NCBI RefSeq assembly: GCF_019797745.1
Contig: NZ_VOSI01000004.1
Span: 1-64,000 of the forward strand
DNA: 64,000 nucleotides
Reading direction: 5' to 3'
Source of the DNA: Edaphocola aurantiacus
GTDB taxonomy: Bacteria > Bacteroidota > Bacteroidia > Chitinophagales > Chitinophagaceae
Part shown: piece after piece, positions 36,342-43,344 of the stretch
How positions within the stretch are numbered: the first letter of the stretch is position 1
Layout: each line of letters opens with the position of its first letter
The notes under the pieces: generated by a model
Databases searched by the model: none
Told to the model about the DNA's origin: nothing
The model's input: the letters and a program-made list of their open reading frames with translations, nothing else
Translations under genes and position numbers: made by a program

Positions 36342-38975
36342 ATGGATACCGTAAAGCTTTCCCAGTTACAGGAGAAATACAAAAATGCCGCAACCGAAGA
36401 AGACCGGATTGATATTCTGTCAGATATCGCATTAGAGATCAGGACAGAAGATGTAGAGCGTGCGCTTGTACTGGCTGATGAGATTATGGAACGTTCCGAG
36501 AAGGTTGGCTATGCCAAAGGCATCGGTGCCGCGTATAATCATAAAGGTGCCTGTTACTGGATAAAAGGGGAGTATGAAGATGGCCTTGATGAGCTGGCCG
36601 AAGCATACTCCATTGCGCGGGAGATCAATGACAAATCGCTCGAGGCAAAAGCCCTGAATAATTACGGCCGCATATATCGTGAACTGGGTGATATTTCCAA
36701 TGCACTGGTGCATTTTGAGGAAGCCCTGGAGATCAACGAATTCCTGGATGATGTGATCAATCAGTCTATCAACCTTACGAATATTGCCAATCTGTACCTG
36801 GATATGGCAGATTATGATCCTGCCCTGGAATATGCACTCAAATGCCTGCCGATATTCGAAAAAGATGATGATAAGACCCGGCTGGTCAGCATTTATAACA
36901 CCCTGGGTAATATTTACTTCAAAAAAGAAATGTTTCCCGAGGCCCTGGAATATTTCAAACGCACACAAGCCCTTACCGATGAACATTCTCCTGCAAAGGC
37001 CCTGGCCAATAGCGGGGTAGGGAAGGTATATTTCAAAATGAATGATTTTGAAAAAGCATCTCATTTCCTCAACATAGCACTGGAGCAGTCAAAAGTGTTC
37101 AGTAATGTAGAGTGTGAGATCTTATCAGAATATTATCTGGGCTGCATGTACAAGGAGCAGTCTCTGTACTCCAAGGCACAGGCCTATCTGGAGCGCAGCC
37201 TGCAGCTCGCAGAAGAGTTTCTGCGCCGTCAGGATATCCTGGGTATTCATGAGAAAATGTCTGAACTGTTCGATGCCCTCAATGACATTCCAAGGGCATA
37301 CCAGCATATGAAAGCATATGAAAAACTCAAGGAAGAGATTTTTCATCAGAATACCTTCAACAAACTGCGTAACCTGCAGATCAAAAATAAAATTGAAGTC
37401 GCCAAGAAAGAGAAAGAAGTTGCCGAACGTACTGCAGCATTGAAGCAGCAGTTCATGGCCAATATGAGTCATGAGATTCGTACACCGATGAATGCCATTG
37501 TGGGAATCACGCGCCTGTTGCTGGATAAGCAGCCTTCGGATGAACAGAAAAAATACCTGAACGTTATTCAGCAGAGTGCCGATAACCTGCTGGTTATTAT
37601 CAATGATATCCTGGATCTGACAAAGATCGAAGCCAATAAAATTGAGATCGAGCAAATCGATTTTTCAGTAAAAGAGCTGGTGCAAAGCACCAAGGAAATG
37701 ATGATCCTGAAAGCACAGGAAAAAGACCTGGCTTTCAACCTGGACATTGCTGCCAACATCCCGGATCGGCTGGTGGGTGATCCTACACGCCTGAACCAGA
37801 TCCTGGTCAATCTTGTGGGCAATGCCATAAAATTTACCGAAAAAGGAAGTGTGCAGATCAGGCTTAGCGCATCCTATCTGAAGCAGAATAAAGTGCTGAT
37901 CCGTTTTGATATTGCGGATACCGGTATCGGCATCTCCAAGCAGTATATCAACTCCATATTTGAAAGCTTTACCCAGGCGGGTAGTGATATGGCCCGTAAG
38001 TATGGGGGTACAGGTTTAGGCCTCACCATTTCCAAACAATTGGTGGATATGATGAAGGGGAGAATAGAAGTAGAAAGCGAGCTGGGGCACGGTACCGTAT
38101 TTTCTGTTTACCTGCCATTCGATATTTCAGAAAACCAGACCGCGGTTATTAAGAAAGAAGCAGTGACCGAAGAGATGAAGGTTGCGCTGAATAAATCGCG
38201 TGTACTCCTGGTCGAGGACAATGAGTTTAACCGTATCGTGGCGGTAGAGACCCTGAAATCATTATTGCCGGAAGTGCGTATCGATATTGCAGAGAACGGA
38301 GATGTAGCGATAGAGCGCCTGCATGAAAAAGACTATGATATGATCCTGATGGACATACAGATGCCGGTCCGTGACGGGATCAGTACCACCCGTTATATAC
38401 GCAATGAAATGCAGGAGCCCAAACGCTCTACAAAAATCATAGCCATGACAGCCAATGTATTGCAGGACGATGTGCGTACTTATTTTAAAGAAGGTATGGA
38501 TGCCTATATCTCCAAACCCTTTAATACAGAAGAGCTGTTGCTGAAGATGAGCAATCAGCTGAACCTTCAGGCGGAAACTGTAGAACCATCGGTAACAGAA
38601 AAGGAAAACAGTGCTTCCAAAACATTGCAATTACCGGACCAGGTAACCGATATGCAGTTTCTGCAGCAGTTTACCGGAAGTAATCCTGAAAAGCGCAACA
38701 AATATATTTCCATGTTCCTCGAAAACTGTCCAAAGCTGTTACAGCAACTGACGACAGCCCTGGAAAATAAAGATTATGCTACCATGAAAATAACGGCACA
38801 CTCGCTTAAGCCGCAATTGGGTTATATGGGTGTGAAGGAAGAGGTAAGTAATATATACCTGATCGAACATTCGGCTGCAGAAGCGCAACAGGAAGTGCTG
38901 CCGGGCCTGGTGCAGCACCTCAGTAAGGTCTGCTCCAAAGCCTTTGAAGAATTGAACCTGGTGCTGCAACAATAG
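36342..38975 (+). CDS. Soluble TPR-hybrid histidine kinase with receiver and Hpt domains
   Basis: An 877-residue signalling protein without signal peptide or membrane helix. Residues ~20-335 are TPR repeats (ALNNYGRIYRELGDISNALVHFEEALE and similar), then a coiled coil. The DHp helix has H377 (MANMSHEIRTPMN); the ATPase has NQILVNLVGNAIKFTEKG (485-502), DTGIGI and GGTGLGLTISKQLV; the receiver has phospho-acceptor D671 (ILMDIQMPVRDG) and the SKPF lysine at ~725; the Hpt domain has H820 (TAHSLKPQLG). All phosphorelay residues are present. The input must be cytoplasmic; no cognate output regulator is adjacent. Confidence 0.93.
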   Translation: MDTVKLSQLQEKYKNAATEEDRIDILSDIALEIRTEDVERALVLADEIMERSEKVGYAKGIGAAYNHKGACYWIKGEYEDGLDELAEAYSIAREINDKSLEAKALNNYGRIYRELGDISNALVHFEEALEINEFLDDVINQSINLTNIANLYLDMADYDPALEYALKCLPIFEKDDDKTRLVSIYNTLGNIYFKKEMFPEALEYFKRTQALTDEHSPAKALANSGVGKVYFKMNDFEKASHFLNIALEQSKVFSNVECEILSEYYLGCMYKEQSLYSKAQAYLERSLQLAEEFLRRQDILGIHEKMSELFDALNDIPRAYQHMKAYEKLKEEIFHQNTFNKLRNLQIKNKIEVAKKEKEVAERTAALKQQFMANMSHEIRTPMNAIVGITRLLLDKQPSDEQKKYLNVIQQSADNLLVIINDILDLTKIEANKIEIEQIDFSVKELVQSTKEMMILKAQEKDLAFNLDIAANIPDRLVGDPTRLNQILVNLVGNAIKFTEKGSVQIRLSASYLKQNKVLIRFDIADTGIGISKQYINSIFESFTQAGSDMARKYGGTGLGLTISKQLVDMMKGRIEVESELGHGTVFSVYLPFDISENQTAVIKKEAVTEEMKVALNKSRVLLVEDNEFNRIVAVETLKSLLPEVRIDIAENGDVAIERLHEKDYDMILMDIQMPVRDGISTTRYIRNEMQEPKRSTKIIAMTANVLQDDVRTYFKEGMDAYISKPFNTEELLLKMSNQLNLQAETVEPSVTEKENSASKTLQLPDQVTDMQFLQQFTGSNPEKRNKYISMFLENCPKLLQQLTTALENKDYATMKITAHSLKPQLGYMGVKEEVSNIYLIEHSAAEAQQEVLPGLVQHLSKVCSKAFEELNLVLQQ

Positions 38976-39083
38976 GGATCATTCGCCCGGATAATTATTG
39001 CACTTTATAATATACAAAACTGGGTATCCGCTTAAAGGGAACAAAGTCTAACATTATGTTTTAGGTATGCTAATTATATCTGT

Positions 39084-39464
39084 TGCTACCTTTTGCATCA
39101 AGGCAAAAGGTAGCGCCAAAAAATCAAGGCTGTATAAATTCCTGGCTAAAAATCAATGTGTCGGCCGGTCGCAAACCAGACTCGCTACGCTCAGACAGTG
39201 GTTTCCGACTTTATCGGCCGAGCCAATGATTTTATTAACGCCGGATTTATAAGGCCTTTCGAGCGATCTGTATGGTACGGATCGCTTGTTGTTTTCATCA
39301 CAGCGATAGCCATTTTGGAGTGGAGCTGCGATCGTTGAGCACCGAACGGATCACACGTTAAGCTCAGACGATCAGTGCACGCAACGGTACAAAATGGCGG
39401 TGCTTGCAATCGCCTTGATGAAAACAAAGGCACTTTTGGTCCTTTTGTTGCCGGACAAAAGGAC
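39084..39464. repeat. Structured ~380-bp repeat element bounded by hairpins
   Basis: Hairpin gctaccttttg / caaaaggtagc (39084-39114) marks the left end and gtccttttg / caaaaggac (39439-39464) the right. Between them lie a stem around tcggccg (39161-39221), a small stem agcgatc / gatcgct (39262-39286) and a long imperfect hairpin from gttttcatca (39291) to tgatgaaaac (39415-39424) with an inner stem. The density of nested inverted repeats without a reading frame fits a non-autonomous mobile or REP-like element. Copies elsewhere in the genome are expected but cannot be seen here. Confidence 0.65.
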
Positions 39465-39716
39465 GAATAAAAGAGTTGACTAAATGCTGATAGTCAGTTA
39501 TACAAAAATGGCATGATTGGTATACCAGTCATGCCATTTTATATATCGGCTATACTGACCCAAAAAGTATGGCAGATGAGGTAAACAAGCCTGGAAGTAT
39601 ATCTAGTAGCACAATGACAGGGTATAGACATTTTCTGTCGTTGAAACCCTGATTTGCTGAAACCGGAAATTTTCCCGAGGTTTGACTGATGTATAGCTAT
39701 ATAGAGCTAAATATGA

Positions 39717-39724
39717 TATATTTG
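39717..39724 (+). promoter_or_regulatory. -7 promoter element upstream of smc
   Basis: TATATTTG, about 92 nt before the GTG start. No TTG at standard spacing. Confidence 0.5.
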
Positions 39725-39816
39725 CATCCATAATGTATCATGGCTATGGTTATATATAATATTTACAACCTGTTCGCCATACCAGCTTCTTTTGTCCGCA
39801 TAAATCAGTTCTGTAC

Positions 39817-42800
39817 GTGAAGTTAAAGTCACTTGAGATAAAGGGGTTCAAATCATTTGCCGATAAAACCCAGATCATACTGGATAATCCGATAACCGGG
39901 ATCGTAGGTCCTAATGGTTGCGGAAAGTCCAACATCATTGATGCCATCCGTTGGGTAATCGGAGAGCATAAGATCAAAGCCCTGCGCTCCGATAACCTGG
40001 AAGACCTGATATTTAACGGGTCGCGTAGCCGTGCCACCAGTGGTATGGCCGAGGTATCGCTGACCTTTGAAAATACCCGTAATCTATTACCTACAGAGTT
40101 TACCACTGTAACGATTACTCGTAAATTTTACCGGAGTGGAGAAAGTGAGTATCGCCTGAATGATGTAGCCTGCCGCCTGAAAGATATCCATAACCTCTTC
40201 CTGGATACCGGTGTCAGTAATGATTCTTACGCAATCATCGAACTGGGCATGGTAGATGATATTATTAAAGATAAGGAAGGCAGCCGCCGCAGAATGCTGG
40301 AGCAGGCAGCCGGTATCTCCATATACAAAACCCGAAAGAAAGAGGCCAAGGCCAAGCTGGAAGCCACCCAGCAGGATGTAGACCGTATCGAAGACCTGCT
40401 GTTCGAGATTACCAATAACCTGCGTACCCTGGAAAACCAGGCCAAAAAAGCAGAACGATACTACCAGATTAAAAATGAATATCGCGAAGTCAGTGTAGAG
40501 CTGGCCAAAGCATCTCTCGAAACCTTTAACGGACAATACCAGGAACTGAACGACCAGCTGGAGCGTGAAAGTGACCGCAAGCTGCAGGTAGATGCATCCC
40601 TGGCCGGAGATGAGGCCGAGATCGAAGCCAATAAAGTAAAACTGACCCAACAGGAGCATGAATTACATGGCCTGCAAAAGCGTTTTAACGATTTGCTGGC
40701 AAGTATACGCCAGCTGGAAGGAGATAAAAAGCTGGCCGCTCAAAGACTGGATCACTTGCAGGATCGGGAAAAGAATCTGAATGAATTCCTGTCCGGAGCG
40801 GATGCACAGGTGGCACAGCTTAAGGAGCGTATAGACTTTACCACACAACAGCTCGATGAAGAACAGGAGTCACTGGAAGACCTGAAAGAGCAACTGGAAA
40901 ACCTCCGGGATACGGTAGATGATAAACGCCACACTTTTGATGAAAAGAAGAAAGTCCTGGAAACGCACCGCAGTACATTCCAGCAGAATCAGCGTCGCCA
41001 GTTCGATGCGGAGAAAATAGTTGCTGTGGCCGATACTTCTATTGCAAACCTGCAGCGCAGTCTGCAGCAGTTGCTGGAAGATAAAACACAGCGCCAGTCA
41101 CAGTTGCAAGCGATTCATACTGAAAAGAAAATGCTGGAAGATCAACTGGTTGATCAGCAGGATGCCTTGCAGGAACTGATTGCAAAGCAGGAAGAAACAA
41201 AAGAACATATTTTCCAGAGCCAGGAATCGCTGGAGTCACTAAGAGTGACTTCTGTAGAAGAAACCCGTAAACTGGATGCCAAAAAGAATGAACATGATTT
41301 ATTGCAATCCCTGGTAAACAGCCTGGAAGGCTATCCGGAAAGCATTAAATTCCTGAATAAAAATAAAGAGTGGGGTAGTAAAGCACCTATTTTGTCTGAT
41401 GTATTCCTGGTGAATGATGCCTATCGTGCCGCACTGGAGAATGTACTGGATGCCTATCTGAGCTATTATGTAGTGAAGGATATTGCCGAAGCGCAAAGAG
41501 CAATAAGCTTGCTGGATACCCATAAAAAAGGAAAGGCCAGCTTCTTTATCCTGGATGCACTCCAGACAGACGGCAAACCTGTGCAATGGAAACAGGAAGG
41601 GCTCACACCGGCATTGTCTGTGGTAACCGTAGACAAGCCATTCCAGTCGCTGGCAGAACACCTGTTGCGGAATGTATACGTAGCAGAAGATGTGGTTGTT
41701 GAAGACATTGAGGTACCTGCCGGAGCCGTGCTGATCAATAAACAGGGCAATATCCTTAAAGGCGCCTACTCCCTGACCGGTGGTTCAATAGGCAAGTTTG
41801 AGGGGAACAAGATCGGTCGTGCCAAAAACCTGGAACGACTGGAGCAGGAAATTGCAGCATTAAGCAAGAGTACCGAAGCCCTGAAAACCTCTATAGAACA
41901 GAAGCGCAGCGAGATTGCAGGCTTTAATGCTACCCTGAATGATAAAGCGATTGACCAGGCTAAAGTTGCACTGAATCAGTTGCAGAACCAGATCTATGCA
42001 CTGGGCAATAAAGCCGAGCACCTGGAGCAGCTGGATCAGAACAGTACGACCCGTATACAGGATGCTGAACAGCAGCTGGAAGATACGCGGGAGAATGTAA
42101 GTGATAAGCAGACCGAACTGGATGATATCAATGATCAGTTACAGCAATTGCTGGACCAGATAAAGGCTGCAGAGAGTGACTTCCAGATGGTTGAAGCCGA
42201 TTTTAATATGGCTTCCCAGCAATATAATAACCAGAATCTGCAATATACCCGTCAACAGAGTAAGATCGAAAACCTGAAGCAGGAACTGAATTTTAAATCC
42301 AATCAGTTAAAAGATCTGGCTACCCAGGTAGAAAACAACCGGGTACAACTCAAAGAGACTTCGCAGATGATCAGTGATACCAGTGGTAAGCTGCACTTTG
42401 GAGATAATGAATTGTACGATTTGCTGAAGCAGAAAGAGACGGATGAGAAATCACTGAGTGAGAAAGATCGACTGTATTATGAGCTGCGCAATAGCATCAG
42501 CGAGCATGAAAGCCGCATCAGCCGCCAGCGTAGAGAAAGAGATCAGTCCGATACCCTGCTCTCCTCCATCAAAGAAAAGCTGAGTGAAATGAAACTGCAG
42601 GTTGCAGGAATGAAGGAGCGCCTTCATGTAGAATTTAAAGTAGACCTGGATGAGGTGCTGGAGCAACCAAGGGTAAATGAGCTGAGTATCGATGAGCTGA
42701 ATGCAGAAGCAGAGAAACTGAAAAAACGACTGGACAATATTGGAGAAATCAACCCGACTGCGATAGAAGCATACCAGGAAATGAAAGTGCGCCACGATTT

Positions 42801-43344
42801 TATCGCCGATCAGAAGTCAGATCTGGAGCATGCCCGTGATACCCTGCTGGCTACTATCGAAGAGGTGGAGAATACGGCCAATGCCCGTTTCAAAGAAACG
42901 TTTGATAGAGTAAGAGAGAACTTTGTACAGGTGTTCAAAGCCCTGTTTACAGAAGAAGATAATGCAGATCTGCGCCTTACAGATGAGAGCAACCTTGCCG
43001 ATAGCGGGATTGAGATCTATGCGCAGCCTAAAGGTAAACGCCCGAGCACATTAACGCAGTTGTCCGGTGGTGAAAAAACACTGACTTCAACAGCCTTCCT
43101 GTTTGCCATTTACCTGATCAAGCCGGCACCGTTCTGTATCCTGGATGAGGTAGATGCCCCGCTGGATGATGCCAACGTGGGTAAATTCACCCAGATGATC
43201 CGCAAATTCAGCGATAACTCACAGTTTATTATTGTAACACATAATAAGCAAACCATGTCTGCTGTAGATGTGATCTATGGGGTAACGATGCAGGAAGCAG
43301 GTGTAAGCAAGCTGGTTCCGGTCGATTTCAGAAGCTTGAACTAA
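39817..43344 (+). CDS. smc: Chromosome condensation protein SMC
   Basis: A 1175-residue SMC ATPase. It begins KLKSLEIKGFKSFADKTQI with Walker A GPNGCGKS (31-38), runs through long coiled coils with a hinge at about residues 510-680 (GYPESIKFL, LSVVTVDKPF, GAVLINKQGNILKG), and ends with the ABC signature LSGGEKTLTSTAFLFAIY, Walker B FCILDEVDAPLDDANV and the D-loop. It compacts and aligns sister chromosomes with ScpA/ScpB, which are not in the window. Translation starts at GTG 39817: no ATG is available upstream in frame that would keep the standard N terminus. Confidence 0.96.
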   Translation: MKLKSLEIKGFKSFADKTQIILDNPITGIVGPNGCGKSNIIDAIRWVIGEHKIKALRSDNLEDLIFNGSRSRATSGMAEVSLTFENTRNLLPTEFTTVTITRKFYRSGESEYRLNDVACRLKDIHNLFLDTGVSNDSYAIIELGMVDDIIKDKEGSRRRMLEQAAGISIYKTRKKEAKAKLEATQQDVDRIEDLLFEITNNLRTLENQAKKAERYYQIKNEYREVSVELAKASLETFNGQYQELNDQLERESDRKLQVDASLAGDEAEIEANKVKLTQQEHELHGLQKRFNDLLASIRQLEGDKKLAAQRLDHLQDREKNLNEFLSGADAQVAQLKERIDFTTQQLDEEQESLEDLKEQLENLRDTVDDKRHTFDEKKKVLETHRSTFQQNQRRQFDAEKIVAVADTSIANLQRSLQQLLEDKTQRQSQLQAIHTEKKMLEDQLVDQQDALQELIAKQEETKEHIFQSQESLESLRVTSVEETRKLDAKKNEHDLLQSLVNSLEGYPESIKFLNKNKEWGSKAPILSDVFLVNDAYRAALENVLDAYLSYYVVKDIAEAQRAISLLDTHKKGKASFFILDALQTDGKPVQWKQEGLTPALSVVTVDKPFQSLAEHLLRNVYVAEDVVVEDIEVPAGAVLINKQGNILKGAYSLTGGSIGKFEGNKIGRAKNLERLEQEIAALSKSTEALKTSIEQKRSEIAGFNATLNDKAIDQAKVALNQLQNQIYALGNKAEHLEQLDQNSTTRIQDAEQQLEDTRENVSDKQTELDDINDQLQQLLDQIKAAESDFQMVEADFNMASQQYNNQNLQYTRQQSKIENLKQELNFKSNQLKDLATQVENNRVQLKETSQMISDTSGKLHFGDNELYDLLKQKETDEKSLSEKDRLYYELRNSISEHESRISRQRRERDQSDTLLSSIKEKLSEMKLQVAGMKERLHVEFKVDLDEVLEQPRVNELSIDELNAEAEKLKKRLDNIGEINPTAIEAYQEMKVRHDFIADQKSDLEHARDTLLATIEEVENTANARFKETFDRVRENFVQVFKALFTEEDNADLRLTDESNLADSGIEIYAQPKGKRPSTLTQLSGGEKTLTSTAFLFAIYLIKPAPFCILDEVDAPLDDANVGKFTQMIRKFSDNSQFIIVTHNKQTMSAVDVIYGVTMQEAGVSKLVPVDFRSLN

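Follow-up and report, generated by a model that had tools for sequence, protein, structure and literature searches.

A gene-less 480-bp repeat upstream of smc in Edaphocola aurantiacus: a probable non-autonomous transposon with a folded module that recurs across Bacteroidota

The hairpin-rich stretch upstream of smc in Edaphocola aurantiacus (assembly GCF_019797745.1, contig NZ_VOSI01000004.1, positions 1 to 64,000; this whole stretch of 64,000 nucleotides is referred to as the window) is one of about 48 whole or partial copies of a gene-less 480-bp element, located at 39019-39498. We interpret this element as a non-autonomous DNA transposon whose left half is a folded module distributed throughout Bacteroidota, with a fold maintained by selection, and assign this interpretation a probability of about 0.77. 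The module may represent an unnamed kind of bacterial repeat, because its pseudoknotted core recurs with matching changes in many Bacteroidota and is absent from the RNA family library. An earlier sequence-only reading had described nested inverted repeats forming a unit of ~380 bp. The long stems are real, but the edges have to be shifted, as the copies align over 39019-39498, which is 65 bp further to the left and 34 bp further to the right. Likewise, the ccttttg hairpins, which that reading took as the ends of the unit, are present on both sides but subterminal; each of them is part of its own inward-facing structure, and the element actually ends in the ACTGA..TATCCGC repeats, which lie further out.

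The element is bounded by imperfect terminal inverted repeats (TIRs; ACTGASTATCCGCWT) and a target-site duplication (TSD), and comprises the following parts:

39019..39498, plus strand: whole element, 480 bp, a probable non-autonomous TIR transposon of the miniature inverted-repeat transposable element (MITE) type (copy alignments and end detection)
39011..39018, no strand: left TSD TATACAAA (end calling, direct reading)
39499..39506, no strand: right TSD TATACAAA (end calling, direct reading)
39019..39033, plus strand: left TIR ACTGGGTATCCGCTT (end calling, direct reading)
39484..39498, minus strand: right TIR, ACTGACTATCAGCAT on the minus strand (end calling, direct reading)
39082..39257, plus strand: conserved structured module (covariance model R1, 151.5 bits, E 1e-27, a score qualified by the presence of the window copy among the 18 sequences from which R1 was built)
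39085..39114, plus strand: hairpin H1 of the module, its loop ATCAAG in the window copy instead of CTTGAT (inverted)
39123..39128, plus strand: pseudoknot partner ATCAAG in the linker 3' of H1 (of 41 aligned sequences, 40 pair it with the H1 loop)
39128..39256, plus strand: long bulged stem P2, with conserved GGCTAAAAAT on the 5' side, ATTTTnTTAACGCC and AAGGCC on the 3' side, and the tip ACTCGC..GCTCAGACAG
39262..39286, plus strand: spacer hairpin AGCGATCTGTA/TACGGATCGCT (inverted-repeat search)
39289..39427, minus strand: long stem of the right half, left-facing (arms 39289-39310/39406-39427, 86%)
39436..39467, minus strand: right subterminal hairpin (CCTTTTGTTGCCGGACAAAAGG; inverted-repeat search)

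The arms of the left hairpin (39085-39096/39103-39114) are 100% complementary over 12 bp and those of the right hairpin (39436-39448/39455-39467) 92% over 13 bp; between both hairpins lie the stems 39126-39152/39232-39258, 39149-39167/39215-39233 and 39289-39310/39406-39427. The fold energy of 39080-39475 amounts to -166.6 kcal/mol on the plus strand (z -9.1) and -154.9 kcal/mol on the minus strand (z -9.2), equalled on neither strand by any of 100 dinucleotide shuffles. The sole open reading frame (ORF) of at least 80 aa within the element is an 80-aa antisense frame.

The copies in the genome of E. aurantiacus (3.69 Mb in 8 contigs) provide evidence for transposition. In a similarity search the best 40 of 74 candidates were scored, with 79-100% identity at E <= 1e-73, in addition to small pieces. 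A left-half pattern matched 38 times, left- and right-half patterns revealed four further places (three short forms and one fragment), and a profile search over the extracted loci placed the pieces and added one more partial copy; at least 48 places carrying all or part of the element were annotated for gene context. The sequence common to the aligned copies spans from ACTGAGTATCCGC on the left to GCGGATAGTCAGT on the right, and the 12-mer end CTGACTATCCGC has 15 exact and 33 one-mismatch matches in the genome versus 7 for the reversed control. Ends were called by a rule that permits up to 4 of 14 letters to differ, and were resolved in 33 of 35 copies, the other two being left out: 27 copies measure 472-489 bp, three 305-423 bp and three 153-163 bp. 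The last three retain both ends and little else, the interior of the module being missing; they were located by end detection and profile placement:

C3:206476-206655, short form
C3:302875-303044, short form
C3:721528-721700, short form

Similar end pairs, about 100-165 bp long, are also found in Edaphocola flava. The 8-bp duplications are perfect in 18 of the 33 end-resolved copies and match at 7 or more of 8 positions in 22, compared with a mean of 0.95 and a maximum of 5 such matches (at least 7 of 8) in a control with re-paired flanks. The left target 8-mers consist of 91% A+T. Copies lie on both strands of all five contigs with placed copies, a distribution by which, judged informally, a replication-strand bias was rejected. 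The search for copies and TSDs proposed by the sequence-only reading consequently bears out its suggestion of a non-autonomous transposon, as do the inverted ends and an empty site in a related species.

This empty site is found in E. flava (genome G001; species identity inferred). The element is flanked by a histidine-kinase-like ORF (36342-38975, named by eye) and smc (39817-43344), both on the plus strand. The E. flava locus upstream of smc aligns with 38501-39011 of the window and again from 39507 onwards (73% identity over 91 columns), with 4 bases between the two pieces and no aligned piece inside the element. Directly behind the element, at 39505-39540, lies a hairpin with a T-run (18 bp, 94% complementary), which has a counterpart at the empty site and is likely the terminator of the kinase gene, now parted from it by the insertion. 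Because the E. flava site is empty and the counterpart of the terminator is present there, the element most likely entered between the kinase gene and its terminator after the split of the two species. In a comparison of 28 E. aurantiacus copies with E. flava loci, most of them selected because they contain the element, five showed an insertion-sized gap between the same flanks, one an empty site (the window copy) and one an inconsistent arrangement, while 21 were without such flanks.

The module, which constitutes the left half of the element and comprises 170-230 nt, consists of the hairpin H1, a linker that pairs with its loop to form an H-type pseudoknot, and a long bulged stem with a conserved asymmetric internal loop. 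In an alignment of 18 sequences from 11 genera of one family (A1), the consensus is CTTGAN in the H1 loop, CAAAAANTCAAGRC in the linker, and GGCTAAAAAT (5') versus ATTTTCTTAACGCC...AAGGCC (3') in the stem, of which the tip reads AACTCGC..GCTCAAACAG in many of the sequences. Of the cells, 95.5% are paired; shuffled alignments reach 81.7%, and sliding the structure along the alignment leaves no more than 56%. Both sides have changed at 15 of 30 pairs, and compensatory cells number 72, whereas shuffles have 19.6.

The pseudoknot is likewise supported by a separate MAFFT alignment (A4) of 41 hand-picked sequences from eight families, taken from the 112 rows of alignment A3, mostly one per locus. 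In A4, 98.4% of the cells of the loop-linker helix are paired. Its variable pair is formed in 40 of the 41 sequences (T-A in 21, A-T in 11 and C-G in 8), the exception being the window copy, and displays 19 compensatory cells versus 4.8 in shuffles, none of 500 reaching 19. All 98 scorable rows of A3 are paired at this position (59 T-A, 27 A-T, 12 C-G), the 14 rows without anchor strings, among them the window copy, having been dropped. Anchor-free scoring finds a complementary run of at least 6 in 81 of 96 distinct loop/linker sets versus 49% when loops and linkers are re-paired, where the sequences in all these pairing sets are related and their cells are not independent events. The covariance analysis suggested by the sequence-only reading has therefore revealed compensatory changes in both stem and pseudoknot. 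Of its alternative proposal, a structured RNA, the conserved nucleic-acid structure with covariation stands, and the folded molecule may be RNA or single-stranded DNA.

DNA matches occur in all five genomes of the genus that were examined, among them Edaphocola flava HME-24 and Taibaiella sp. KBW10; three are rich, one has ten pieces, and one a single 54-bp piece. With blastn, 17 of 195 family genomes gave matches, and those outside the genus are short and mostly fall on query positions 60-155, which indicates a conserved inner part. Model R1, built from 18 sequences of 11 genera with a shortened calibration and hence rough E-values, matches 59 of 147 family genomes (49 of 100 genera) and 103 of 395 phylum genomes (51 of 170 genera) at E <= 0.001, tallies that include weak matches, some to the H1 hairpin alone. 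At E <= 1e-9 it matches 40 of the 395 phylum genomes, in 15 families. At least 16 copies are present in each of 11 of the 59 positive family genomes; copy numbers outside E. aurantiacus are lower bounds, with the best 16 matches scored per genome in the family and the best 6 in the phylum. A sequence unique in its genome and not conserved would have spoken against the sequence-only reading; instead, the element is multi-copy and its module is present across Bacteroidota.

Outside the genus, the unit of dispersal appears to be different. In six genera (G143, G085, G457, G490, G227, G529) the similarity of most dispersed copies ends no more than about 20 bases from the edges of the module or inside it, longer shared flanks being confined to tandem arrays and single pairs, and neither TIRs nor TSDs were seen by eye around the dispersed modules of these six genera. 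In genome G099 the module lies inside a MITE of ~380 bp with other ends (CATTGTTGTCCGACTAA) and a 9-bp TSD; the ends of 11 of 16 copies were resolved, and 5 of these 11 match at 8 or more of 9 positions, compared with a control maximum of 1. The module is thus carried in at least two unlike MITEs and, seemingly, also without a MITE. It is possible, although on balance unlikely, that the module represents a mobile unit of its own class, about 200 nt long, with no terminal repeats or target duplication seen so far, which spreads as a folded single strand (single-stranded DNA or RNA) by means of an enzyme not yet known and was captured more than once by ordinary MITEs.

Several observations weigh against our interpretation of the element as a transposon with a module under selection for its fold. 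Perfect TSDs are missing in 15 of the 33 end-resolved copies, and fewer than 7 of 8 positions match in 11; in G099, the ends of 5 of 16 copies are unresolved and 6 of the 11 resolved ones match at 7 or fewer of 9 positions. The end matches listed for six genomes (G000, which is that of E. aurantiacus, G099 and G001-G004; 1-3 mismatches) revealed no transposase with the ends of the element. The number of pair types in A1 does not exceed that of shuffles (29 vs 27.2; 131 of 500 shuffles), and no double-sided change occurs in the four closing pairs of P2 or in helices 3 and 4. A4 leaves out 71 of the 112 rows, including those with unusual loops (e.g., L252, L263), and its variation is restricted to a single pair among the six of the pseudoknot; at the next pair outward, 74 of 98 rows of A3 pair. 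The wobble asymmetry (G.U 16 vs C/A 4) shrinks to 3 vs 4 without one pair and does not decide the strand. Finally, the window's own copy breaks the pseudoknot.

The latter copy has an inverted H1 loop. Among 35 copies in the genome the loop reads CCTTGATG in 32, TCTTGATG in two and CATCAAGG in one, the window copy, and one further inverted loop was found among 39 in loci L061-L100. Since H1 comes close to a perfect inverted repeat, inversion of the loop should keep the hairpin but abolish the pseudoknot. If the pseudoknot matters, the window copy is probably impaired.

On the grounds of the 8-bp duplication and the inverted ends, we infer that the 480-bp element would owe its mobility to a DDE-type transposase that works in trans on its ends and whose gene was not found in the genomes searched. 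Solo end matches in the own and sister genomes were searched for a partner, and one long pair in element context was detected, spanning 4.7 kb in E. flava. An IS1595-type transposase gene (PF12762, E 3e-41) lies within this pair, which was nevertheless rejected as an autonomous element, since a separate IS1595-type transposon has inserted itself into a copy there. The nested transposon (L346, 1246-5464) measures 4.2 kb, has the ends GGCATTAATATAC/GGCACTAATATAC, is flanked by an 8-bp duplication of its own (CTATTTAT), and holds three ORFs without a Pfam match. IS1595-family transposons generate 8-bp target duplications, a feature which they share with our element, whereas the nested E. flava member differs from it in its GGCATTAATATAC-type ends. 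A looser end pair of 2 kb (L356) lies outside element sequence and matches by chance. A plasmid or phage origin was likewise rejected, with no blastn match in plasmids or phages; the 16-mer CAAAAAATCAAGGCTG is held by 26 viral contigs, and the model matches only one of these, partially and at a contig end.

For the module, the folded strand may act as a recognition signal for its own spread, as is thought for the hairpins of repetitive extragenic palindromes (REPs), and the module may persist close to gene 3' ends by doing no harm there, or even by being useful as a transcription end. We put this forward tentatively, at somewhat less than even odds, as an analogy, although among the readings of what the module does it has the best support. 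In the subclass 2.6 of TnpA-REP (RAYT) proteins of Bacteroidetes, the genes are said to be flanked by atypical structures in the accessible part of the description (PMC6006769). The module might accordingly be such an atypical REP, spread by a HUH transposase that cuts the folded single strand. RAYT model matches in 114 of the 147 family genomes (above the curated cut-off in 60) and module copies without TIRs by eye in several genera are compatible with this explanation, but the module occurs near only one of 50 RAYT loci (49 distinct), a number that chance could give, and 9 of 59 module-bearing genomes have no RAYT match, including G080, G070 and G093 with 13-16 module matches. Co-occurrence in the 147 genomes is not significant either (both in 50, module only in 9, gene only in 64, neither in 24; p 0.11), and GT[AG]G is absent from the first 12 bases of all 41 modules in A4. 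With one linked case in 49 distinct loci, we reject a RAYT/REP linkage and regard an origin of the module as an atypical REP as quite improbable. HEARO is not among the Rfam matches of window positions 38900-39820, and genes of the HUH/TnpB/IscB kind were searched only as the RAYT family.

Some families possess same-strand clusters and tandem arrays of modules, and in one cluster in G457 a module follows gene after gene. The same-strand tandem arrays, with a start-to-start spacing of mostly ~290-355 bp and once 464 bp, are:

L249, 5041-6743
L250, 8305-9476
L254
L255
L267

Integron-like cassette recombination at folded, attC-like sites would account for such arrays, and for the clusters behind successive genes in G457. 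However, attC sites have paired R and L boxes, whereas the conserved A1 strings GGCTAAAAAT and ATTTTCTTAACGCC form no paired R boxes by eye, and other arrays have consecutive modules without a gene between them, which renders this explanation highly improbable.

The location of the copies relative to genes bears on two further alternatives. None of the 48 copies overlaps an ORF of at least 100 aa by more than 40 bp, and 3 of 74 modules, mostly of other genera, overlap such an ORF. Convergent, tandem and divergent gaps hold 23, 19 and 6 of the 48 copies, compared with 4, 15 and 8 of 27 gaps in the window. The excess in convergent gaps (23/48 vs 4/27) has a Fisher p of 0.005, and the divergent gaps a p of 0.12, where the background gaps (between ORFs of at least 110 aa) derive from the 64-kb window only. 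Gene context is based on our own ORF caller (at least 100 aa, overlaps up to 40 bp ignored, ORFs largely inside the element dropped), which is blind to small genes and to genes split by insertion.

The enrichment in convergent gaps would be expected of a bidirectional terminator family that spreads since insertion behind genes is neutral, its fold being kept solely for termination, and T-runs follow the stems outward on both strands by eye. The T-run, however, is several bases off the stem, and termination requires neither a pseudoknot nor conserved letters in an internal loop. We therefore regard this explanation as improbable.

A serious rival, which we nevertheless consider rather unlikely, is a functional RNA under host selection, be it a 3'-untranslated-region (3'-UTR) element, an attenuator or a small RNA, that was merely picked up by MITEs and whose many copies form a regulon. 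The H-type pseudoknot with its A-rich linker and the conserved letters of the internal loop resemble RNA, and the copies in E. aurantiacus are mostly found behind genes. In a broader range of genera the gene on the 3' side of the module points at it in 43 of 67 cases, and in G457 there is one module after gene upon gene in a cluster. In contrast, the orientation is not constant (neighbour strands 23, 18, 13 and 9 of 63 modules with both neighbours), no constant partner gene is discernible by eye, and modules form tandem arrays. Moreover, most dispersed copies in the six genera share no flank, and hence no promoter travels with the modules.

Rfam 15 yielded 9 matches in window positions 38900-39820 at E up to 5, none of them at its gathering cut-off, and no match in 10 loci (126,541 bases). 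In the open-access literature no description was recognised as the module; subscription papers, preprints and supplements lie outside this scope, and the module may be known by another name. The 480-bp element resembles the MITEs BrickBuilt of Porphyromonas gingivalis (PMC4596501) and that of Cardinium (PMC9769881), which are likewise short, gene-less, intergenic and present in many copies with inverted ends. As far as the accessible parts of their descriptions go, no covarying pseudoknotted core is mentioned for either (PMC4596501, PMC9769881), and BrickBuilt is built on a 23-nt minisatellite, unlike our element (PMC4596501). REPs and bacterial interspersed mosaic elements (BIMEs) associated with TnpA-REP are, in the portion of the text accessible, folded, intergenic and of high copy number, both single and clustered, as is the module (PMC6006769). 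REPs measure 21-65 nt and have a GT[AG]G guide, though (PMC6006769, same portion), whereas the module, at 170-230 nt, is pseudoknotted, is devoid of GT[AG]G and does not adjoin RAYT genes. The STAXI motif (RF01728) is, from what could be consulted of its description, also a pseudoknot motif that occurs repeatedly and could function either as RNA or as single-stranded DNA, but it is found in Enterobacteriales near genes for DNA-handling proteins, while the module has no Rfam match (PMC2864571). Candidate MRSC-65-2 is similarly a structured motif in many copies with strong covariation, thought to be selfish; it differs, according to the section accessible, in its single long stem with UYCCGG repeats, compared with the pseudoknot, bulged stem and other conserved letters of the module (PMC11109978).

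The module, a structured element without an Rfam match, is present in between a tenth of the sampled Bacteroidota genomes, at E <= 1e-9, and a quarter of them, at E <= 0.001. Should the fold be what drives mobility, the module would represent a mobile element with a pseudoknot as its recognition signal; should the module act on transcripts, it would amount to a 3'-end structure that is widely shared. In both cases, the module would explain part of the hairpin-rich intergenic DNA of Bacteroidota. For a search for the enzyme or for transcripts, the analysis provides the covariance model R1, ends that are defined in one genus, one empty site and genomes rich in modules.

The right half of the element, read on the minus strand, has the same architecture with other letters: a hairpin, a loop-complementary linker (39429-39432) and a long stem, the loop CCGGCA being complementary to the linker TGCC by eye. 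A stand-alone version of the right half is seemingly present in G002 (L035) and G004 (L051), again by eye, and it is possible that the right half constitutes a second module type. In three loci of G101 (L224-L226), the stem seemingly holds two consecutive copies of the GGCTAAAAT/CTTAACGCC internal loop, as though the motif had been iterated (by eye).

In three genera (L142, L143, L156) a SymE-like and an XRE-type regulator ORF, named by eye, lie in the same stretch as the module, and in a fourth (L141) an XRE-type ORF and a broken-looking SymE-like stretch lie beside it (by eye). We do not build on this association, as other loci were listed without both SymE-like and XRE-type ORFs. In several families (L251-L253, L256, L257), modules are clustered among genes that by eye resemble those for polysaccharides or exopolysaccharides.
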